Positions 8,455 through 17,401 of a stretch of DNA of 42,913 nucleotides are shown here, piece after piece. Positions within the stretch are counted from its first letter, which is position 1. Each line of letters begins with the position of its first letter. The position numbers were made by a program, and so were the translations under genes. The notes beneath the pieces were generated by a model. That model was not told where the DNA came from, did no database searches, and saw only the letters and a program-made list of their open reading frames with translations. The stretch spans positions 1 to 42,913 of the forward strand of contig PBSL01000007.1 of NCBI GenBank assembly GCA_002726205.1, written 5' to 3'. Source of the stretch: Planctomycetaceae bacterium. GTDB taxonomy: Bacteria > Planctomycetota > Planctomycetia > Planctomycetales > Planctomycetaceae.

Positions 8455-11052
8455 ATGTTCTCGCGTCTGGCCGCCGTTGTCGTTAGATTCTGGCCGGTCT
8501 GCCTGGGTGGCTGGCTGCTGGTGCTTGCGGTCAGCTGGCGAGCCGCACCCGATCTCAACGACGTTGTCACCTCCGGCGAGTTCGCTTTCCTGCCGGCGAC
8601 TTCGCCCAGTCGGGTGGGCGAGGAGTTGTTTGCCAGGGCCTGGGACGATCCGCTGGCCAGCCGGATCGTGATTGTTGTCAGCTGCAAGAGCGGCGATGAC
8701 CGGATCAACGAACTCGATGAACGATTCATCGACCGGGTACTCAAGCCGGCGATCGAACAGGTGGCCGAGCAGATGGGGGGGCTCGCGTCGACAACTGCCG
8801 GGGACGAGGTCGCCGACGAGGGGAACTCCGCCGATGACGGGGTGCCAGCGCCATCGGCTCCCGACAGTCGATCGCTGATCGCCCGGGTGCGGACGTTCAA
8901 GGACCGTTCGATCGGCAGGTTGCTGCAGAGTCGTGATGGCCGCGCGTCGCTGGTGATCGTCGAGTTGACGACCGAGTTTCTCAACCGGGAGAATTTCGAG
9001 ACGATCCGGCAGATCGAGGAGTTGATCTCGACTGACATTGAACGCGACCCGGGTCACCTGTGGTCGCCCGGGTTGGCGTTGTGGAAAGAGACCGACCTGA
9101 ACCCTCAGCTGGTCCAGCAACGACTGAAACTCTCGACCAGCGGCGAAGCGACCGTCGGCCGCGACATGTTGCGGGCCAGCGACGAGAGTGCCAGTGCAAC
9201 CGAAACGTGGACGGTGATCCTGGTTGTCGTCTTGCTGGTGTTGTTGTATCGGGCGCCGATCATCGCCCTGATCCCGCTGGTGACCGTGGTGGTCGCCGTA
9301 AAGATCTCGATGAGCCTGCTGACGCTGGGGGCGGCGTGGGGAATCGTCAACCTCTTCCGGGGCATCGAGGTTTATGTGACGGTCCTGTCTTACGGGGCGG
9401 GAGTCGATTACTGCTTCTTCCTGATCGCGCGGTACCGCGAGGAACTCGACGCGGGTGCGACACCGGCTGACGCGGTGGAACGGGCCCTGTCCCGTGTCGG
9501 TGCTGCGCTGACGGCCAGTGCCGGCACGGTGATCTGTGGGATCGGGATGATGGTCTTCGCCCGGTTCGGCAAGTTCCAGCAGGCCGGTGTGGGTATTTCG
9601 TTTGGCCTGTCCGTCGTGCTGGTCTCGTCGTTGACGTTCACGCCCGCCCTGTTGCGACTGGTGGGGGGCTGGGCTTTCTGGCCCCGCCGCTATGGCCTCG
9701 GCTCGACCGGGACAGCCGGCTGGGTAGCGACCGAGAGCCCGGTGGGACGCTGGCTGCGGAGCAACCCCGTCCAGTCGGCCTGGGACGGGTTGGCCGCCGT
9801 TCTTGTTCGGAGGCCGGCGACGATCTGGGTGACCAGCGTTGCCTTGATGTTGCCGCTGGCCGCCTGGGGGGCGGCGCATTACACGACACTCAGTTATGGC
9901 CTGCTCTCCGAGTTGCCTCGCGCCACCGCCAGCGTCAAGGGGGCGGCCGAGGTGCAGGCGTACTTTCCGGCCGGAAATGCGGGACCGGTTACCCTGTTGC
10001 TCGAGAACCAGCAACTCGACTTTTCTTCCCAGGAAGGTCGGGAGCGGATCACGTGGCTTTCGAACTTCCTGCGGGACCGCAAGCAGGCCCTGAAGATCGC
10101 CGACGTCCGCAGCCTGTCGCATCCCTACGGTCTCGACGGCGGCTCGGGGGTTTCCGGCAGCCTGATCGAACGACGGATCCGGCGACGAAGGCTTCGCCAG
10201 TATTATGTCTCGGACTCAGAAGCCGCCTCCGGTCGGGTCACCCGGATCGACATTGTCTTTGACGACGATCCATTCTCACGGGATAGCATCCGTCAATTGA
10301 CGGCACTGGAAAACGCCGTGGAGGAGCACCTTGGCAGGAAAGAATCTCCGGGATGGGTGCCGGCCGATGTGGAAAACCTGCTGGCGGTCGGTCCCACCGC
10401 CAGCATTCGCGACCTCAAGCAGGTGACCGACAACGACCAGATCCGCATCGATCTGCTGGTCCTGGCGGCCGTTTACGCCATCCTGTTGGTCCTGCTCCGC
10501 CGTCCGGCGATCTCGCTGTACTTGATCGTCGGCGTGTTCCTCAGTTATCTCGCGGCGTTAGGCGTGACGTTTATAGTCTTTGAGTTCATCGTTGCCGATC
10601 CGGGCGAGTTCGCCGGTCTCGACTGGAAGGTGCCGATGTTTCTATTCACGATCCTGATCGCCATCGGCGAGGACTACAACATTTTCCTGATGACCCGGAT
10701 CGAGGAAGAGCAGCAGGAGCACGGGCTGGTCGGCGGGGTGGTCGAGGCCTTGAAGAAGACCGGCAGTATCATCGCCGGCTGTGGCGTGATCATGGCGGGC
10801 ACGTTTTCCTCGTTGCTGGCCGGATCGCTGGTCGGCATGCACCAACTGGGGTTTGCGCTGGCCTTCGGCGTGTTGTTGGACACGCTGGTCGTGATGCCGA
10901 TCCTGGTGCCCGCCTGGCTGATCCTGCTGTATCAGGGGCGGTTGGGCCGTGTCGGTCGCTGGCTCGGAGCACCCGCGATCACCGGCATGGTCAATTCCGG
11001 AAGCGAGGCCGATCGGGATCCGGGGAGCGGGGGATTGTCGGCCGGCCGGTAG
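8455..11052 (+). CDS. MMPL/RND family transporter
   Basis: An 865-residue inner-membrane transporter of the MMPL branch of the RND superfamily, which exports lipids or hydrophobic compounds using the proton gradient. One helix lies at residues 10-28, followed by an outer domain. Helix block one (about 250-400) contains GAGVDYCFFLIARYREE; a second outer domain and helix block two (about 670-840) contain GEDYNIFLMTRIEEE. The paired Asp-Tyr (VDY, EDY) match the proton-relay pairs of MmpL3. A linker at about 115-145 is rich in Asp, Ala and Pro. The last 121 bases overlap the 3' end of the opposite-strand dioxygenase gene. The substrate is unknown; hopanoid or lipid export is one option for such proteins. 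Confidence 0.93.
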   Translation: MFSRLAAVVVRFWPVCLGGWLLVLAVSWRAAPDLNDVVTSGEFAFLPATSPSRVGEELFARAWDDPLASRIVIVVSCKSGDDRINELDERFIDRVLKPAIEQVAEQMGGLASTTAGDEVADEGNSADDGVPAPSAPDSRSLIARVRTFKDRSIGRLLQSRDGRASLVIVELTTEFLNRENFETIRQIEELISTDIERDPGHLWSPGLALWKETDLNPQLVQQRLKLSTSGEATVGRDMLRASDESASATETWTVILVVVLLVLLYRAPIIALIPLVTVVVAVKISMSLLTLGAAWGIVNLFRGIEVYVTVLSYGAGVDYCFFLIARYREELDAGATPADAVERALSRVGAALTASAGTVICGIGMMVFARFGKFQQAGVGISFGLSVVLVSSLTFTPALLRLVGGWAFWPRRYGLGSTGTAGWVATESPVGRWLRSNPVQSAWDGLAAVLVRRPATIWVTSVALMLPLAAWGAAHYTTLSYGLLSELPRATASVKGAAEVQAYFPAGNAGPVTLLLENQQLDFSSQEGRERITWLSNFLRDRKQALKIADVRSLSHPYGLDGGSGVSGSLIERRIRRRRLRQYYVSDSEAASGRVTRIDIVFDDDPFSRDSIRQLTALENAVEEHLGRKESPGWVPADVENLLAVGPTASIRDLKQVTDNDQIRIDLLVLAAVYAILLVLLRRPAISLYLIVGVFLSYLAALGVTFIVFEFIVADPGEFAGLDWKVPMFLFTILIAIGEDYNIFLMTRIEEEQQEHGLVGGVVEALKKTGSIIAGCGVIMAGTFSSLLAGSLVGMHQLGFALAFGVLLDTLVVMPILVPAWLILLYQGRLGRVGRWLGAPAITGMVNSGSEADRDPGSGGLSAGR

Positions 11053-11753
11053 GTGAGAACGACCGAGAACTTCGTGGCGTCGGTCCGGTTCGCCCCGGCG
11101 GTGTGCAGTGTGAGACAGTGGAACAACACCACGTCTCCGGCCTCGAGATCGAAACTTTGCCGCTTGGCGATCAGGGCCTGGTTCTGGGGGAGGTCTTCCC
11201 GGAAGAACCTACGTTCGTCGAACCGATCTTCGGAGAGCGTCAGGTTGTGGCTGCCGGGAATGAACTCCAACCTCCCGTTTTCGTCCCGCTCGGGTCCCAG
11301 TGCCAGCCAGACACTGACCAGTTCGGGTCGTTGAAACGACCAGTAGCGGAAATCCTGGTGCCAGCCGGTCACACTGGAGAACTTCGGCTGCTTGGTCATG
11401 ATGCAGTTGTGGTGGGCCAGTGACAGGACGAGATCGGGACCGAGCAACTCGCCCAGACAAGCCAGCAGCGGCGGGTCGGTCGCCCAGGTGGTGAAGAGGG
11501 AATCTCGATCGATGGCCTGTCGGAGCCGCCGGATCGTGGCGCCGCCTTCGGCCGCTCGGTCGGCGGGGGCGCCGGGATAGCCGAGATCGGCCTCGAATTC
11601 GACCGGGTTGAACGGCGCAGCCAGTTGGTCGTGGACCAGCGAGAGGAAGTCGCGACAAAGCGACGGGGACGCCAGGCCACGGATGACAATGAATCCGTCC
11701 CGCCGGAAAGCGTCGCCTTGCTCGCTGGTCAACCGTTGCCTGTCGGGATCCAC
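10932..11753 (-). CDS. Phytanoyl-CoA dioxygenase (PhyH) family protein
   Basis: A probable Fe(II)/2-oxoglutarate oxygenase. The metal triad is visible as HQD in TGWHQDFRYW (His132, Asp134) and the distal His217 in LTLHTAGANR, with an arginine soon after (Arg223) that would hold 2-oxoglutarate. The N terminus LTSEQGDAFRRDGFIVIRGL is typical of the family. I chose GTG 11753 because GACGAGGA lies just upstream; a TTG at 11774 is also open. The final 40 or so residues, rich in Pro, Ser and Arg, are read antisense to the end of the MMPL gene. Substrate unknown. The family in bacteria hydroxylates many small molecules and lipids, so the name should not be read as a phytanate pathway. Confidence 0.9.
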   Translation of the reverse strand: MDPDRQRLTSEQGDAFRRDGFIVIRGLASPSLCRDFLSLVHDQLAAPFNPVEFEADLGYPGAPADRAAEGGATIRRLRQAIDRDSLFTTWATDPPLLACLGELLGPDLVLSLAHHNCIMTKQPKFSSVTGWHQDFRYWSFQRPELVSVWLALGPERDENGRLEFIPGSHNLTLSEDRFDERRFFREDLPQNQALIAKRQSFDLEAGDVVLFHCLTLHTAGANRTDATKFSVVLTYRPADNPPLPGSRSASLPELTMPVIAGAPSQRPTRPNRP

Positions 11754-11783
11754 GGGTTCCTCGTCAAAAAACAACCGGCAGGA

Positions 11784-11803
11784 GCCTCGGGCGAGGCCTC
11801 GCC
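11784..11803. promoter_or_regulatory. Overlapping palindromes in the dioxygenase/adaptor intergenic region
   Basis: GCCTCG-GG-CGAGGC (11784-11797) overlaps a perfect 14-base palindrome GGCGAGGCCTCGCC (11790-11803). This gives three alternating copies of a GCCTC-type half site. They lie 20 bases upstream of a perfect TATAAT, where a -35 box would be expected and is missing. The arrangement looks like an operator or activator site; no protein can be assigned. Confidence 0.4.
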
Positions 11804-11822
11804 ACAGGGTGCAGGCAGTCCG

Positions 11823-11828
11823 TATAAT
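11823..11828 (+). promoter_or_regulatory. Candidate -10 box upstream of the RND adaptor gene
   Basis: A perfect TATAAT. No TTGACA-like box lies 16-18 bases upstream; that position is held by the palindromes at 11784-11803. If used, transcription would start near 11835 and give a leader of about 125 bases before the ATG at 11962. Confidence 0.4.
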
Positions 11829-11843
11829 GGCCCTGCGGTGATG

Positions 11844-11862
11844 CCGGTGAAGGGGTCACCGG
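11844..11862 (+). repeat. Inverted repeat (hairpin) in the presumed adaptor leader
   Basis: CCGGTGA (11844-11850) and TCACCGG (11856-11862) form a perfect 7-bp stem around a 5-base loop. It begins about 10 bases after the expected transcription start from the TATAAT at 11823. It could be a leader hairpin or a second DNA-binding site. No run of T follows, so it is not a standard terminator. Confidence 0.4.
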
Positions 11863-11961
11863 TCTTGGTGAGAACCAGTGGCTCTCATCCTATCACGTCG
11901 GGCGGTTCGGCTGCATCGTAGCAATCCAAAGGAGCCGGTCGCTGTCGGAATCGGGTAACCC

Positions 11962-13419
11962 ATGACCGAAACCATGTCCTCGCATCCGCGGCGTCGCCGG
12001 GTCGTCTCGGTCATGGCCTGCGCCGGTCTGTTGATCACCGGGGCGGTCGGTTTCAGCATGCTCGCCTCACTGCGTGCGAAGCCGCCCAGCCGTGCCGAGC
12101 AGAAGCGGATCTACCAGGTGGATGTCTTCCGCGTCGAGCGACAGCCGCTGCGGGAGATCATGACGGCATTTGGTACGGCACGCAGCGACCGGCAGGTGGT
12201 TGTGGCGGCACAGGTGGCCGGTGAGATCGTCGAGGTGCACCCTCAGCTGCGAGTGGGGCTGAGATTGCCTCCCCGGCAATCCGAGGCCGATCCGATCGAT
12301 CTGGTCGTGATCGATGAGGAAGCCTATGCCCAGAAGGTGATTCAGGCCGAGCGGCGTCTCGAAGAGGATGACGCGGAACTGGCTCGCCTGGCCCAGGACA
12401 AGGTCAACAAGCAACGTCAGCTCGAGAAGGCCCGTGGGGACCACGCCGAGTACAGCAAGGAATTCGAACGGATCCGCGAGTTGAAGGCCAAGGGCGTTGC
12501 AACACAGAGTGATTTCACCAAGGTCACGCTGGAGTTGAGACGTTACGAGGACCAGGTGATCGTTCTGGAAAACGCGAGCAAGCTGCTTCCGTTGGAGCAG
12601 GAACGCGTGCTGAAGCGACAGGAGTCGCACCAGTCGGACCTGGCCCTGGCCCGCCTGGACCTGAAGCACGCCCGGGTTCGTGCCCCCTTCGGCGGGGTTC
12701 TTGGGGAAGTACACGTCGAGAAGGGGCAGTACGTGCGGCCCGGCGAGCCGCTGGTCCGCCTGGTCGATGACAGTGTCGTCGAGGTCCCCGTGTCACTGAC
12801 CGCCAGCGACTACATGCGAGTCCGGGCGATGATCGCTGCCGGTCGGCGACTGCAGGTCGCCTTGGCCGTCAACGAGTCGGATGCTCCGTCGTGGAACGGC
12901 CGGATGACACGGGTGGCGCCGGAGGTGGATGAACTGACCCGCACGGCGCGAGCATTCGTCGTCGTGGAAAACCGCGACCAGAAGACGCCGCTGGTCCCGG
13001 GAACCTTCGTCCATGTGCGGATTGTCGGACCCGAGTTGTCCCGGCCACTGGTGATTCCACGGGATGCCATCAATGTCGATGAAAACGAGAAGACGTTTGT
13101 CTGGGCGGTGACCACGGCGGCACCCGGGCAGCCGTCGCAGGCTGCCGCTGGCACGGCCACGACCGCCAGGCAGATCCAGCGACGCTATTTTCGCATCGAG
13201 CGGACCTTCCAGACACTGGCCCTCGTCGATGGGAACGCATTGCAGGACGGTGACCTGATCGTGTTGACCAACCTGGACGCCCTTGGCCTCGAGTCGCTGG
13301 TACGTTTGTCCGGACCGGAGTCCTATCGCACGCTCGACCAGGAACTCGACGATCAGCGGATGCAAGTGCTCCGCCGCGTCCCGACGGCCTCGGGGGCGGC
13401 CCAAGAGGGTGTTGACTAG
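11962..13419 (+). CDS. RND efflux periplasmic adaptor (membrane fusion protein)
   Basis: A 485-residue adaptor that would bridge an inner-membrane pump to the outer membrane. It has a membrane anchor at about residues 14-36 without a lipobox. The lipoyl-like half QVAGEIVEVHPQLRVG is followed by a long coiled-coil hairpin (about 110-235) and the matching half APFGGVLGEVHVEKGQYVRPGEPL. A beta-barrel and a membrane-proximal domain with PGTFVHVRIVG and PRDAI follow. The C terminus carries an extra 40-residue tail. ATG 11962 is the first start after an in-frame TAA at 11956. A strong AAAGGAG lies too far upstream (11928-11934) to serve this ATG. No RND pump follows it; the nearest is the MMPL gene about 0.9 kb upstream. 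Confidence 0.9.
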   Translation: MTETMSSHPRRRRVVSVMACAGLLITGAVGFSMLASLRAKPPSRAEQKRIYQVDVFRVERQPLREIMTAFGTARSDRQVVVAAQVAGEIVEVHPQLRVGLRLPPRQSEADPIDLVVIDEEAYAQKVIQAERRLEEDDAELARLAQDKVNKQRQLEKARGDHAEYSKEFERIRELKAKGVATQSDFTKVTLELRRYEDQVIVLENASKLLPLEQERVLKRQESHQSDLALARLDLKHARVRAPFGGVLGEVHVEKGQYVRPGEPLVRLVDDSVVEVPVSLTASDYMRVRAMIAAGRRLQVALAVNESDAPSWNGRMTRVAPEVDELTRTARAFVVVENRDQKTPLVPGTFVHVRIVGPELSRPLVIPRDAINVDENEKTFVWAVTTAAPGQPSQAAAGTATTARQIQRRYFRIERTFQTLALVDGNALQDGDLIVLTNLDALGLESLVRLSGPESYRTLDQELDDQRMQVLRRVPTASGAAQEGVD

Positions 13420-13462: not shown

Positions 13463-13503
13463 AAGTTGTGACGGCTTGCGGTGTTTTTCCGAGGGGTGTT
13501 TCG

Positions 13504-15897
13504 ATGAGATCCTGTTCACGCTGTATGGGTCTGGTAGTGCTGGCGGTTCTGACCGGAGTCCCGCTGCCGGTCAACGCGGCCGGCCTGCCGGTGGTCGAGT
13601 CGGTCGAGCATCAACCGCTGGTAGCGGCGACCCGGCGGCTGGTCGATGCCCTCGAGTACGCGGGAGCCCCCCTGTCGAAAACTGACAACGCGGCGTTGAA
13701 GGCGGCATTGGCAAACCCAAAACAGGCCGAGTCGATCCGGACAATCCAGGCGATTCTCGACCGGCATTGTCTGGTCGGCGTTCACATCAATCCCGAGAGC
13801 CGGGTGAAGGTGGCCGAGGGACCGGTGCGAAAACAGCTGGTACAGCAGGGCTGGCGGACATTTCTCGTCAAAGTCCACAACGAGGCCGGCGTGACCGCGC
13901 CACTGGTCGCCAACAGTCCCCAGGCGCTGCCGGTCTACATGCGGGGTCGTGGTTCACGGCAACGGCCACAGGCCAAGGCCAAGCTGGTGGCACCGGCCGA
14001 TGTCGGGCAACGCTTCCTGGACCTGGCAATGTTCAGCCGCCAGCCACTCAAACCCACGCTCTCGGGACTGGAACTCGAGTACCGCATTCTGCACCTCTAC
14101 AGTCGGGATGTTGGACGACGCGAAGCCAAGCTGACCTTCCACGTTGGCCAGGGAACGCAGGATCTGGGGTTTCGCAGCGAAGTGCCGGTGCTGTTTGAAT
14201 GTGTACCGGCTGTCGAGATCTCACTGGACGTCCAGGACTTCGACGGTCGCCCCACGATGGCCGCCTTCGTCATCCGCGACGGGCAGGGACGCGTGTACCC
14301 CAACCCGGCACGGCGGCTTGCTCCCGACTTCTTCTTCCATAACCAGGTGTACCGTGCCGGTGGCGAGAGCATTCATCTGCCACCGGGGGTTTACAGTGTC
14401 GAGATTTCCCGGGGGCCGGAGTACCGCGTCGACATGCACCGGCTCGTTGTTCCCGCCGGTGTCGTCAGCCACAAGGCCGCGTTTCGGCTGAGCCGCTGGA
14501 TTCACCCGGCAGCCCGGCGGTGGTACTCGGGTGACCACCACGTCCACGCGGCCGGCTGCTCGCACTACGACAGCCCGACCGAGGGCGTGACGCCGGCGGA
14601 CATGATGCGACACATTCTCGGCGAGGACCTCAATGTGGGCTGTGTCCTCTCGTGGGGGCCGTGCTGGTACACGCAGAAACAGTATTTCGAGGGCCGCACG
14701 TCGGCGCTGTCGAAACCGCGTTATCTGATGAGGTATGACGTTGAGGTCAGCGGGTTTCCCAGCTCGCACGCCGGTCACCTGTGCCTGCTGCGATTGTCCG
14801 AGGATGATTACCCCGGGACGAAACTGATCGAGGAGTGGCCAAGCTGGACACTGCCGGTACTGGACTGGGGCAAGCAGCAGGGCGGCGTTGTCGGCTACAG
14901 CCACAGCGGTTGGGGGCTGGCATTGCCCGACTACTCGGCCGACGGGAAACGCGAGTTCATCAACCGTGGCAAGGTTCCCGCTGGCTGGACGGGCCGTGCC
15001 GCCGACACGTTGCCCGATTACGCCATGCCCCGGTTCGACGGCATCGGCGCCAACGAGTACATCGTGACGGTTGCCCACGACGTCTGTGATTTCATCTCCA
15101 CCGTCGACACGCCGGCCGTCTGGGAACTCAACATCTGGTACCACACGCTCAACTGTGGTTACCGGACCCGGATCAGCGGTGAGACCGATTTTCCCTGTAT
15201 CTACGGCGACAAGGTTGGACTGGGACGGATCTACGTCAAGCTCGACAAGGACCAGCCCCTGGACTTCGACAACTGGATCAACGGTGTTCGCGATGGTCGC
15301 AGCTACTGTGGCGATGGTCGTTCACACGTGATGGATTTTCGCGTCGAGGGTGTCTCGGTCGGAGAACCCGGTTCCGGCGGGGTGATCAGCCAGCTCGACC
15401 TCGACAGGCCCGACGAGGTAACCATCAAGTTCGACGTGGCGGCCTGGCTCGAGCCGAAGCCGACCGAGGCGACCCAGGCAATCCGCGGTCGCCGCCTCGA
15501 CCAGAAACCCTACTGGCACATCGAGCGGGGGCGAATCGGGGAGACCCGAAGGGTTCCGGTCGAACTCGTCGTCAACGGCTACCCGGTGGCTCGCAAGAAG
15601 GTCAAGGCCGACGGGAAGACCCGGTCGATGAAATTCGATGTCGACATCAAACATTCCAGCTGGATTGCCGTGCGAATCTTCCCCTCGGTGCACACCAACC
15701 CGGTGTTTGTTCGCGTCGACAAGAAGCCGATTCGAGCCAGTCGTCGCAGTGCGACCTGGTGTCGTCAGGCGGTCGATGTCTGCTGGAACCAGAAGAAGGG
15801 TCGCATTCGTGATGATGATCAGGCAGCCGCCAAGGCGGCCTATGACAAGGCTCGTGCCATCTACGAGGCGATCATCGATCAGAGTGTGGCTGACTGA
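13504..15897 (+). CDS. Secreted CehA/McbA-like (PHP-type) metallohydrolase family protein
   Basis: A 797-residue exported protein. The signal peptide covers about residues 1-25 (MRSCSRCMGLVVLAVLTG, cleavage after VNAA). The frame reaches a GTG at 13468, but ATG 13504 gives the clean signal peptide and has GAGGGG upstream. The first 330 residues look like beta domains. A PHP-like region starts near 341 with GDHHVHAAGCSHYDS, whose histidines and Asp are likely metal ligands. This region resembles the CehA/McbA group named after carbaryl hydrolase, though that activity should not be assumed. The C terminus (FPSVHTNPVFV, IRASRRSATWC, then a helical end) resembles large secreted planctomycete proteins. 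Substrate unknown. Confidence 0.8.
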   Translation: MRSCSRCMGLVVLAVLTGVPLPVNAAGLPVVESVEHQPLVAATRRLVDALEYAGAPLSKTDNAALKAALANPKQAESIRTIQAILDRHCLVGVHINPESRVKVAEGPVRKQLVQQGWRTFLVKVHNEAGVTAPLVANSPQALPVYMRGRGSRQRPQAKAKLVAPADVGQRFLDLAMFSRQPLKPTLSGLELEYRILHLYSRDVGRREAKLTFHVGQGTQDLGFRSEVPVLFECVPAVEISLDVQDFDGRPTMAAFVIRDGQGRVYPNPARRLAPDFFFHNQVYRAGGESIHLPPGVYSVEISRGPEYRVDMHRLVVPAGVVSHKAAFRLSRWIHPAARRWYSGDHHVHAAGCSHYDSPTEGVTPADMMRHILGEDLNVGCVLSWGPCWYTQKQYFEGRTSALSKPRYLMRYDVEVSGFPSSHAGHLCLLRLSEDDYPGTKLIEEWPSWTLPVLDWGKQQGGVVGYSHSGWGLALPDYSADGKREFINRGKVPAGWTGRAADTLPDYAMPRFDGIGANEYIVTVAHDVCDFISTVDTPAVWELNIWYHTLNCGYRTRISGETDFPCIYGDKVGLGRIYVKLDKDQPLDFDNWINGVRDGRSYCGDGRSHVMDFRVEGVSVGEPGSGGVISQLDLDRPDEVTIKFDVAAWLEPKPTEATQAIRGRRLDQKPYWHIERGRIGETRRVPVELVVNGYPVARKKVKADGKTRSMKFDVDIKHSSWIAVRIFPSVHTNPVFVRVDKKPIRASRRSATWCRQAVDVCWNQKKGRIRDDDQAAAKAAYDKARAIYEAIIDQSVAD

Positions 15898-15943: not shown

Positions 15944-17401
15944 ATGATCTGCATTTCCGTTACGCCGCAGTCCCGCCGGTTTGCCAAGGCCGACCTGCTC
16001 AACGCATCGCGGCAATGTGACCTGATCGAGCTGTGTCTGGATCACCTGGTCAAGCCGCCGGACATGGACGACCTGCTCGCGGCCGTCGACAAACCGGTCC
16101 TGGTTTCCTGTCGAAGGTCACAGGACGGTGGTCAGTGGAAGGCCGGCGAAGAGGAGCGGCTGACACTGTTGAGACAGGCCATCGTCGCCGAACCGGCGTG
16201 GATCGAGCTTGACCTGGACATCGCCGGCAAGGTGCCGCGGTTCGGCAAGACCAAGCGGGTCATCAGTTACACGAGCCTCTACGAACCACTGGGACGAACC
16301 AAGGGGGAAATCGATGAGGTGTTCGATCGTGCCAAGGATGCCGGTGCCGATGTCGTCAAGTTCACCTGGCCGACCGAGACGCTTGAGGCCGCCTGGCCGT
16401 TGCTCTCGGCGGTGAGCCAGAAGCGGGAACTCCCGGTCGTTGGAATGGGCCTGGGCCGGTGTGGTCTGACCTTCTCTTTGCTGGGCCGCAAGTACGGGTC
16501 TCCGTGGATTTATGCCGCGTTGGAGAAAGGGATGGAGGCCTACGAGGGTCAGCCAACCGTCGCGGATCTCGACGAGATTCACCGCTGGCGATCGATCGGG
16601 CCGGGCACGAAGTTCATTGCCGTCGACGGCTTCGATGAGTCGACGATGACGATGGTTGCCGTATTCAACCGCTCGGCCGAATCCGCCGGGCTGGATGTCC
16701 GCTGGCTGCCGCTGACCTGGGAACGTTCCGATCGGCTCAAACAGATGCTCGAGGTCCTGAAGATCCAGGGAGTGATCGGCTGGCTGGGCCAGACCGACCG
16801 GTTGGGAGAATTGGCCGAGAGCCGCGAGGAGGCACTCGGTGCTGACGGTTCGGTGGATCTGCTGCTGAAAAAGAAAGATGATTGGAGCGGGTTCGGCTGC
16901 CTGTGGCGCAGTGCCGTGCTGAGGCTAGAAGAGGTCCTCGGTGGGGATTCGGACCGGCCGCTGGATCGCCGCAACGTGCTGGTGATCGGTACGGGATCGC
17001 TGGCGCGGACGATGGTCTTTGGGATCGGCCGCCGTCGAGGACTTGTCAGCGTGGCCGGGGCCGACGACCAGGCTGCTCAGCAACTGGCCGCGGACGCAGA
17101 AGTGCGTTTCGTACCCGGCCAGAATCTTTACGACACACTGGCCGATGTCGTGGTCCTGGCCGATCCGGAACTGCTGCTGGGTGCCCGACGCGGAGAGCTC
17201 AACCCATCATTCCTGCGGCCGCCGATGCTGGTGATGGATGTCGCGGCCGGGCGTGACGACAGCAAGGTGTTGTCCGAGGCGAGAAGTCGGGGCTGCACGC
17301 TGGTGGAACCGGCGGGGGTCTGGACGAGCGTGGTCGAGTCGCTGTATCGGTCGATCACCGGGTCGGACTTGCCTTCCGGTTGGGAAACCGCCACCGGCTA
17401 G
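15944..17401 (+). CDS. Fused dehydroquinate dehydratase/shikimate dehydrogenase-like protein, catalytically degenerate
   Basis: A 485-residue fusion. Residues 1-215 follow the type I 3-dehydroquinate dehydratase barrel: DLIELCLDH, SCRRSQDGGQW, ELDLD, and ADVVKFTW with the Schiff-base lysine (Lys139). The catalytic histidine expected in the SYHD-like motif is Thr110 (VISYTSL). The substrate-binding arginine of the GxxSR motif is Ser178 (GLTFSLLG). Residues 222-485 follow shikimate dehydrogenase. A Rossmann loop GTGSLA (349-354) and the end CTLVEPAGVW are present, but the SxS substrate motif, the catalytic lysine of VTxPhK and the NTD motif are missing. The fold is therefore recognisable but both activities are doubtful. 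It could be a regulatory or scaffold protein, or have a new activity. Start ATG 15944. Confidence 0.82.
   Translation: MICISVTPQSRRFAKADLLNASRQCDLIELCLDHLVKPPDMDDLLAAVDKPVLVSCRRSQDGGQWKAGEEERLTLLRQAIVAEPAWIELDLDIAGKVPRFGKTKRVISYTSLYEPLGRTKGEIDEVFDRAKDAGADVVKFTWPTETLEAAWPLLSAVSQKRELPVVGMGLGRCGLTFSLLGRKYGSPWIYAALEKGMEAYEGQPTVADLDEIHRWRSIGPGTKFIAVDGFDESTMTMVAVFNRSAESAGLDVRWLPLTWERSDRLKQMLEVLKIQGVIGWLGQTDRLGELAESREEALGADGSVDLLLKKKDDWSGFGCLWRSAVLRLEEVLGGDSDRPLDRRNVLVIGTGSLARTMVFGIGRRRGLVSVAGADDQAAQQLAADAEVRFVPGQNLYDTLADVVVLADPELLLGARRGELNPSFLRPPMLVMDVAAGRDDSKVLSEARSRGCTLVEPAGVWTSVVESLYRSITGSDLPSGWETATG

Follow-up and report, generated by a model that had tools for sequence, protein, structure and literature searches.

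A planctomycete paralogue of the AroD-AroE fusion enzyme, predicted to be inactive in both reactions, that retains the Schiff-base lysine

The window analysed here (the whole stretch of DNA, 42,913 nt) contains a gene whose product resembles a fusion of type I dehydroquinate dehydratase (AroD) and shikimate dehydrogenase (AroE) in which catalytic residues of both halves are replaced. This raises the question of whether such a protein still performs a step of the shikimate pathway, is a decaying duplicate or is retained for another function. The gene and its two halves are located as follows.

15944-17401, plus strand: AroD-AroE-like paralogue, predicted to be inactive in both reactions (frame, profiles, alignment to the canonical fusion, residue counts).
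15950-16579, plus strand: type I dehydroquinate dehydratase-like barrel, residues 3-212 (PF01487 match; strongly conserved among paralogues).
16601-17377, plus strand: shikimate dehydrogenase-like half, spanning approximately residues 220-478 (fold retained, catalytic residues lost, less conserved; Foldseek matches to AroE structures).

The open reading frame encodes 485 aa, begins with ATG and contains no internal stop. As the first-pass annotation had stated, the frame is thus intact and the composition normal (GC3 0.774, compared to 0.767-0.809 in three neighbouring genes). In a Pfam profile search, the sole match of the protein is DHquinase_I (PF01487; residues 3-212, E=1e-36, 127.7 bits at a curated cut-off of 22.2); the same search gave no match to the shikimate dehydrogenase substrate domain (PF08501) and no shikimate kinase domain. 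The NCBIfam equivalog for a working AroD, TIGR01093, scores 64.2 bits, under its cut-off of 139.3, and the equivalog for the bifunctional AroDE, NF006802, scores 24.3 bits, under its cut-off of 598. Shikimate dehydrogenase models are weak on the C-terminal half (NF001319, 31.2 bits versus 252; TIGR00507, 22.6 versus 200.2). In a small alignment of seven members, PF01488 is still matched by two of them and PF03807 by five, both weakly.

A structure model, based on the window protein plus six relatives and with a mean pLDDT of 71, was relied on for the overall fold alone. Its best Foldseek match is the Arabidopsis DHQ-SDH fusion (PDB 2gpt, 2o7q) with a TM score of 0.75 on the query and E=1.9e-29; the modelled fold also matches AroE structures, with a best E of about 1e-14. 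Residues 185-189 and 194-202 have a pLDDT below 50 and residues 187-194 are drawn as a helix. The model agrees with the AroDE-like fold that had been proposed and is too weak in these two segments to place Glu194, a residue discussed below, in the pocket. The product of the window frame is related to the AroD-AroE fusion over its full length and shares with AroDE (Arabidopsis DHQ-SDH) the order of the two domains, the fold and the lysine.

The genome assembly of the window (4.86 Mb, 96% complete) contains exactly two type I dehydratase domains, one in the window gene and one in a fusion protein on contig 75. The latter (494 aa) shows all of the landmarks SHH, K, SHS, TIPHK and NTD and carries the only PF08501 match of the genome. 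Aligned end to end, the two proteins are identical at 142 of 486 positions (29%, E=2e-55). The dehydroquinate synthase gene aroB was also found in this genome, and no type II dehydratase was found there. Since the same genome holds a separate intact fusion and aroB, the window gene is regarded as a paralogue and not as the pathway enzyme; an absence of other shikimate genes, which the first-pass annotation had named as an argument against its reading, does not apply.

Residues were counted in 179 distinct paralogue sequences (73 plus 106 added later), which are a subset of all matches, and in 59 canonical enzymes. Gaps at the key columns of the 179 sequences number zero, except for the dehydrogenase Asn (one), Asp (one) and Gln (seven). 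Dehydratase residues are given in the enterobacterial numbering (Glu46, Arg48, Arg82, His143, Lys170, Arg213, Gln236), placed onto the window protein by alignment. The following positions of the barrel are central.

16028-16030, plus strand: Glu29 (equivalent to Glu46), kept in 179/179 paralogues.
16271-16273, plus strand: Thr110 at the place of the catalytic His143; His in 2/179 paralogues versus 59/59 canonical enzymes.
16358-16360, plus strand: Lys139, the Schiff-base lysine (Lys170); Lys in 176/179 paralogues.
16475-16477, plus strand: Ser178 at the place of the substrate-binding Arg213; Arg in 0/179 paralogues versus 59/59 canonical enzymes.
16523-16525, plus strand: Glu194, a new near-invariant acidic residue; Glu in 178/179 paralogues, and Ser, Asn, His or Asp in 58/59 canonical enzymes.

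His143, Lys170, Arg213 and the Lys and Asp of the shikimate dehydrogenase (SDH) are kept in all 59 canonical enzymes. In the window paralogue, replacements relative to AroDE affect the equivalents of His143, Arg213 and Arg48 and, in the SDH, the SxS motif, Lys, Asn and Asp. The place of Arg48 is taken by Cys31, with Arg in 39 of the 179 paralogues. In the second half, the SxS motif corresponds to M235/M237, the Lys to Thr284, the Asn of the NTD motif to Asp305 and the Asp to Leu320; across the 179 paralogues, the two SxS serines occur in six and four sequences, the Lys in one, the Asn in ten, the Asp in none and the Gln in 91. Ser232 aligns with residue 195 of the canonical enzymes, where all 59 have Leu, Met, Ile, Phe or Val. 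Several dehydratase contacts are retained: Arg82 (R57 in the window protein) in 175/179 and Gln236 (Q203) in 170/179, while the place of Glu86 holds Glu in 54 and Asp in 123 sequences.

Both paralogues with His at the His143 place (L050, L272) belong to genus g3 and still lack Arg213 and the SDH residues. In three sequences (L066, L089, L270), Arg replaces the Schiff-base lysine, so that Schiff-base chemistry cannot be a requirement in all paralogues.

The claim of the first-pass annotation that nearly all catalytic residues had been lost holds for His, Arg and the SDH SxS, Lys and NTD residues, and the losses are conserved across the 179 paralogues. It is overstated with regard to E29, R57, Q203 and K139, the last of which it had itself recognised as the retained Schiff-base lysine. 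Misalignment of the catalytic residues was considered and rejected, as the columns are fixed by the 59 canonical and 179 paralogous sequences; nor do His and Arg reappear at the aligned columns beyond the two histidines mentioned.

In addition to the losses, the paralogues have near-invariant residues of their own that set them apart from AroDE. In the 73 sequences first aligned, S10, D17, N20, W151-P152, W188, E194 and G196 are near-invariant and rare in canonical enzymes, and R253, D305 and T398 form the same class in the dehydrogenase-like half. G196 and E198 are each present in 177 of the 179 paralogues; E198 also occurs in 21 of the 59 canonical enzymes. Glu194 probably lies at the mouth of the barrel pocket, although the model is weak at this residue; it would be located there if strand 8 has the same end point as in the enterobacterial enzyme.

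Since the catalytic His, Arg213 and the SDH Lys-Asp pair are all gone, neither classic reaction is expected, and the window protein is predicted from its residues to lack dehydroquinate dehydratase as well as shikimate dehydrogenase activity. For this gene, a dehydroquinate dehydratase label taken from the PF01487 match alone would be an error. Passages of PMC4114755 and PMC9074039 describe the roles of the catalytic Lys and His in type I dehydratases, and according to a passage of the latter, replacement of the His by Ala alone severely lowers the activity of E. coli AroD. A divergent but active enzyme that still runs one classic step through an unusual pocket is accordingly very improbable, as the His is present in 2/179, Arg213 in 0/179, the SDH Lys in 1/179 and the SDH Asp in 0/179 paralogues, and an intact enzyme is encoded in the same genome. 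In its favour are the retention of Lys, Glu46, Arg82 and Gln236, the His at the catalytic place in genus g3, and a small number of genomes in which no PF01487 protein apart from the paralogue was found.

These genomes are G033 (L204; 100% complete, 80 contigs), G120 (L263; 97%, 560 contigs) and G163 (L231; 90%, 1340 contigs), in which no type I dehydratase domain other than that of the paralogue was found, and likewise the less complete G139, G083 and G036. A separate shikimate dehydrogenase domain is present in G033 and G163; none was found in G120. When G033 was searched at the DNA level for the canonical locus, only seven matches of about 30 bases were obtained. Assembly gaps are likely the simplest reason for the missing canonical enzyme in G033, G120 and G163. 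Nevertheless, these three genomes tell against a clean pseudo-enzyme reading, and the paralogue may have a residual dehydratase role there.

To describe the distribution of the paralogue, 170 genomes of the order of the window were searched, all of them from one family and covering 58 genera. A paralogue match below 1e-80 is present in 159 of the 170 genomes, some matches being cut by contig ends and one copy being broken. The eleven genomes without a match are G019, G042, G053, G060, G061, G076, G097, G099, G122, G133 and G162; G019 has a second dehydratase domain fragment at a contig edge. The copy in G027 is broken and that in G012 contains one stop. A canonical fusion match below 1e-90 is likewise present in 159 of the 170 genomes, the exceptions being G010, G033, G036, G054, G097, G102, G120, G139, G153, G158 and G163. 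Since the paralogue is missing from four genomes rated more than 90% complete (G162, G133, G053, G099) and broken in G027, it is not essential everywhere.

Outside the family but within the same class (397 class genomes searched), matches below 1e-60 were found in 28 of 273 genomes, namely 23 from f3, four from f8 and one from f4. A search of 199 genomes of the phylum gave a best match outside the class of 1.4e-41, which, judged by E-value alone, is the level of canonical enzymes; 21 of the genomes had no match. In a FastTree phylogeny that combined 73 paralogues with canonical enzymes drawn from the family (31) and from the wider class (28), all 73 paralogues share a single clade with a support of 1.0. 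The gene is regarded as an ancient paralogue of the planctomycete fusion enzyme AroD-AroE. A search of the open-licence literature found no work on a planctomycete AroD-AroE paralogue among the matches listed.

The paralogue is under purifying selection. In 14 paralogue pairs, omega is 0.02-0.20 for the nine with a dS of 0.2-1.0 and 0.03-0.16 for the five with a dS above 1.0; three canonical pairs analysed alongside gave 0.05-0.13. The loss of catalytic residues, the broken copy in G027 and the stop in G012 are what would be expected of a decaying duplicate, a pseudogene in the making. This explanation is nonetheless rejected as scarcely credible by the breadth of a single clade of full-length frames across many genera, by the omega of 0.02-0.20 in the nine pairs, and by 44 barrel columns that are at least 94% identical (see below). 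To the first-pass annotation, too, the gene had looked selected and not decaying.

Constraint is distributed unequally over the two halves. Of the two halves, the barrel shows the lower omega in 14/14 paralogue pairs and in 3/3 canonical pairs; a slow barrel alone is therefore not special, as the barrel is the slower half in the canonical pairs too. A matched comparison was based on 20 genomes with both genes (mean pairwise identity, 190 pairs each). For the barrel half, identity amounts to 0.62 in the paralogue versus 0.60 in the canonical enzyme, and for the dehydrogenase-like half to 0.35-0.36 versus 0.49-0.53, in a set in which one of 15 newly added canonical rows is misplaced at several key columns. 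From these identities, the barrel is as tightly constrained as that of the working enzyme and the dehydrogenase-like half is relaxed. In unmatched sets, with the canonical enzymes taken from best matches, the values are 0.67 versus 0.73 for the barrel and 0.40-0.46 versus 0.61-0.64 for the rest, and 0.59, 0.38 and 0.35 for 20 divergent paralogues. Columns that are at least 94% identical number 44 in the barrel of the paralogue versus 48 in the canonical enzyme, and 15 versus 57 in the other half (73 and 59 sequences).

A well-conserved barrel would also suit a partner protein with a structural or allosteric effect on the true AroD-AroE; by forming mixed dimers via the barrel, it would tune or stabilise the active enzyme. 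Matches to the two proteins are equally frequent in the family (159/170 each), and dimers of C. albicans Aro1 are mediated by the barrel according to a passage of PMC9074039. Such a partner is, however, unlikely: conservation includes residues at the pocket place (the equivalents of Lys, Glu46 and Arg82) and not surfaces alone, and in G033, G120 and G163, possible assembly gaps aside, the paralogue occurs where no second type I dehydratase domain was found.

The genomic neighbourhood was compared at 41 paralogue loci, 22 from the family and 19 from others, with genes defined as mechanical open reading frames; in two loci (L057, L078), the paralogue itself is masked by a longer overlapping frame in this set. 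Gene order is mostly unshared around the 41 loci, and no conserved shikimate-pathway neighbour was seen. Of the interpretation given in the first-pass annotation, the loss of both activities stands at the residue level, while the suggested role as regulator of the shikimate pathway has no such neighbour to back it. The gene directly upstream in the window is a recurrent one.

13468-15897, plus strand: CehA/McbA-family metallohydrolase, possible operon partner (NF038032, E=2e-85; its stop lies 46 nt before the ATG of the paralogue).

At four loci the metallohydrolase directly precedes the paralogue, both genes sharing one strand, at a distance of 46 nt in the window, 45 nt in L056, 51 nt in L068 and 167 nt in L066; in L061 it is located 1.6 kb from the paralogue. 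These five metallohydrolases are 64-80% identical. A functional tie between the metallohydrolase and the paralogue is possible.

One genome carries a fusion of the paralogue to a kinase. In G172, a single frame of 960 aa (L088:5945-8824, minus strand) joins a Ser/Thr protein kinase (PF00069, E=6e-49) to a paralogue, and no Met is present at the junction. The fused copy is divergent, with Ser in place of Glu194 and Ala in place of the Gln, and the same genome also carries an unfused paralogue (L087) and the canonical enzyme (L147). As the fusion was found in one genome only, it points weakly to a link with sensing. Planctomycetes carry many Ser/Thr kinases, and those located near the paralogue (L060, L066, L073, L079) were for this reason discounted as no more than chance. 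The frame upstream in L072 is similar only to the kinase protein of L073; read by eye, the similarity falls outside the kinase domain.

As the lysine and some contacts are kept, new barrel residues are fixed and the second half is relaxed, the paralogue most likely binds a different carbonyl ligand, as far as its residues can indicate. In the mechanism proposed here, a copy of the AroD-AroE fusion would have given up both reactions and been retained as a ligand-binding protein, whose barrel would bind a small carbonyl compound on Lys139 in a reversible manner and with no turnover. Because Arg213 is gone and Glu194 is added, the ligand is probably not dehydroquinate and may lack the carboxylate or bear a hydroxyl or positively charged group. 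The dehydrogenase-like half, being less constrained, might serve as a scaffold or output surface, and the protein would then work as a metabolite sensor or regulator.

A pseudo-enzyme of this kind, with a carbonyl metabolite on Lys139 in the barrel pocket and a sensory or regulatory role, is the reading favoured here, with the odds judged about even. It is favoured by the lack of a conserved metabolic partner, by the kinase fusion in L088 and by a parallel in fungi. The repressors QutR, GaaX and TanX derive from the last three AROM domains, i.e. dehydratase and dehydrogenase domains plus shikimate kinase, and the two of dehydratase and dehydrogenase type are thought to lack the known activities, inducer binding being the working hypothesis (passages of PMC6528562 and PMC10512348). 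Like these repressors, the paralogue has lost both catalytic sets at the residue level and is kept beside an active pathway enzyme. Unlike them, it is bacterial, forms its own planctomycete clade, has no shikimate kinase domain and has no known transcription factor partner. A second parallel is the dehydratase domain of C. albicans Aro1, which has Gln for the catalytic His, has no lysine and is inactive by assay, as given in a passage of PMC9074039. Both proteins have the fold of a type I dehydratase and a replaced catalytic His; in contrast to the paralogue, which keeps the lysine next to a separate intact enzyme, Aro1 has lost the lysine while its other domains work.

The other leading reading is a new Schiff-base enzyme, in which Lys139 would be kept, His143 would be replaced in function by E194, E198 and D90, and another lyase, aldolase or dehydratase reaction on a different carbonyl substrate would be performed. 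Both suggestions of the first-pass annotation, a regulator and a new Schiff-base activity, thereby stay ahead of the other readings. Such an enzyme would explain why Lys (176/179), Glu29 (179/179), E194 (178/179), G196 (177) and E198 (177) are so strictly kept in a barrel as constrained as that of the working enzyme, and the metallohydrolase preceding the gene in four loci could be its metabolic neighbour. On the other hand, Arg stands for the lysine in three sequences, the loci share no conserved pathway context, and the metallohydrolase looks exported (N-terminal hydrophobic stretch, by eye) while the paralogue does not. It is therefore considered a possible but less probable reading, even though the two cannot be distinguished by sequence.

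A broader form of the sensor reading is advanced more tentatively still, namely that the paralogues constitute a bacterial family of Schiff-base metabolite receptors that evolved once in planctomycetes, apart from the fungal QutR-type proteins. Lys139 would read a carbonyl metabolite and the protein would signal to partners, in one lineage to a joined Ser/Thr kinase. If true, this would be a bacterial conversion of a two-step shikimate enzyme to a receptor, matching the separate fungal case.

Some further features are confined to individual loci. In the window, genes for an MMPL/RND-type transporter and an RND periplasmic adaptor are located upstream at 8455-13419 on the plus strand. A membrane protein neighbour is common to L053, L054 and L063, and a hydrolase-like neighbour is found in L078-L081, both being local to few loci. 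In G007, a second, more divergent paralogue (L074, contig C41) is present beside the ordinary paralogue and the canonical enzyme. In G002 (L038, contig C118), the paralogue and the canonical fusion are encoded about 2.6 kb apart on opposite strands.
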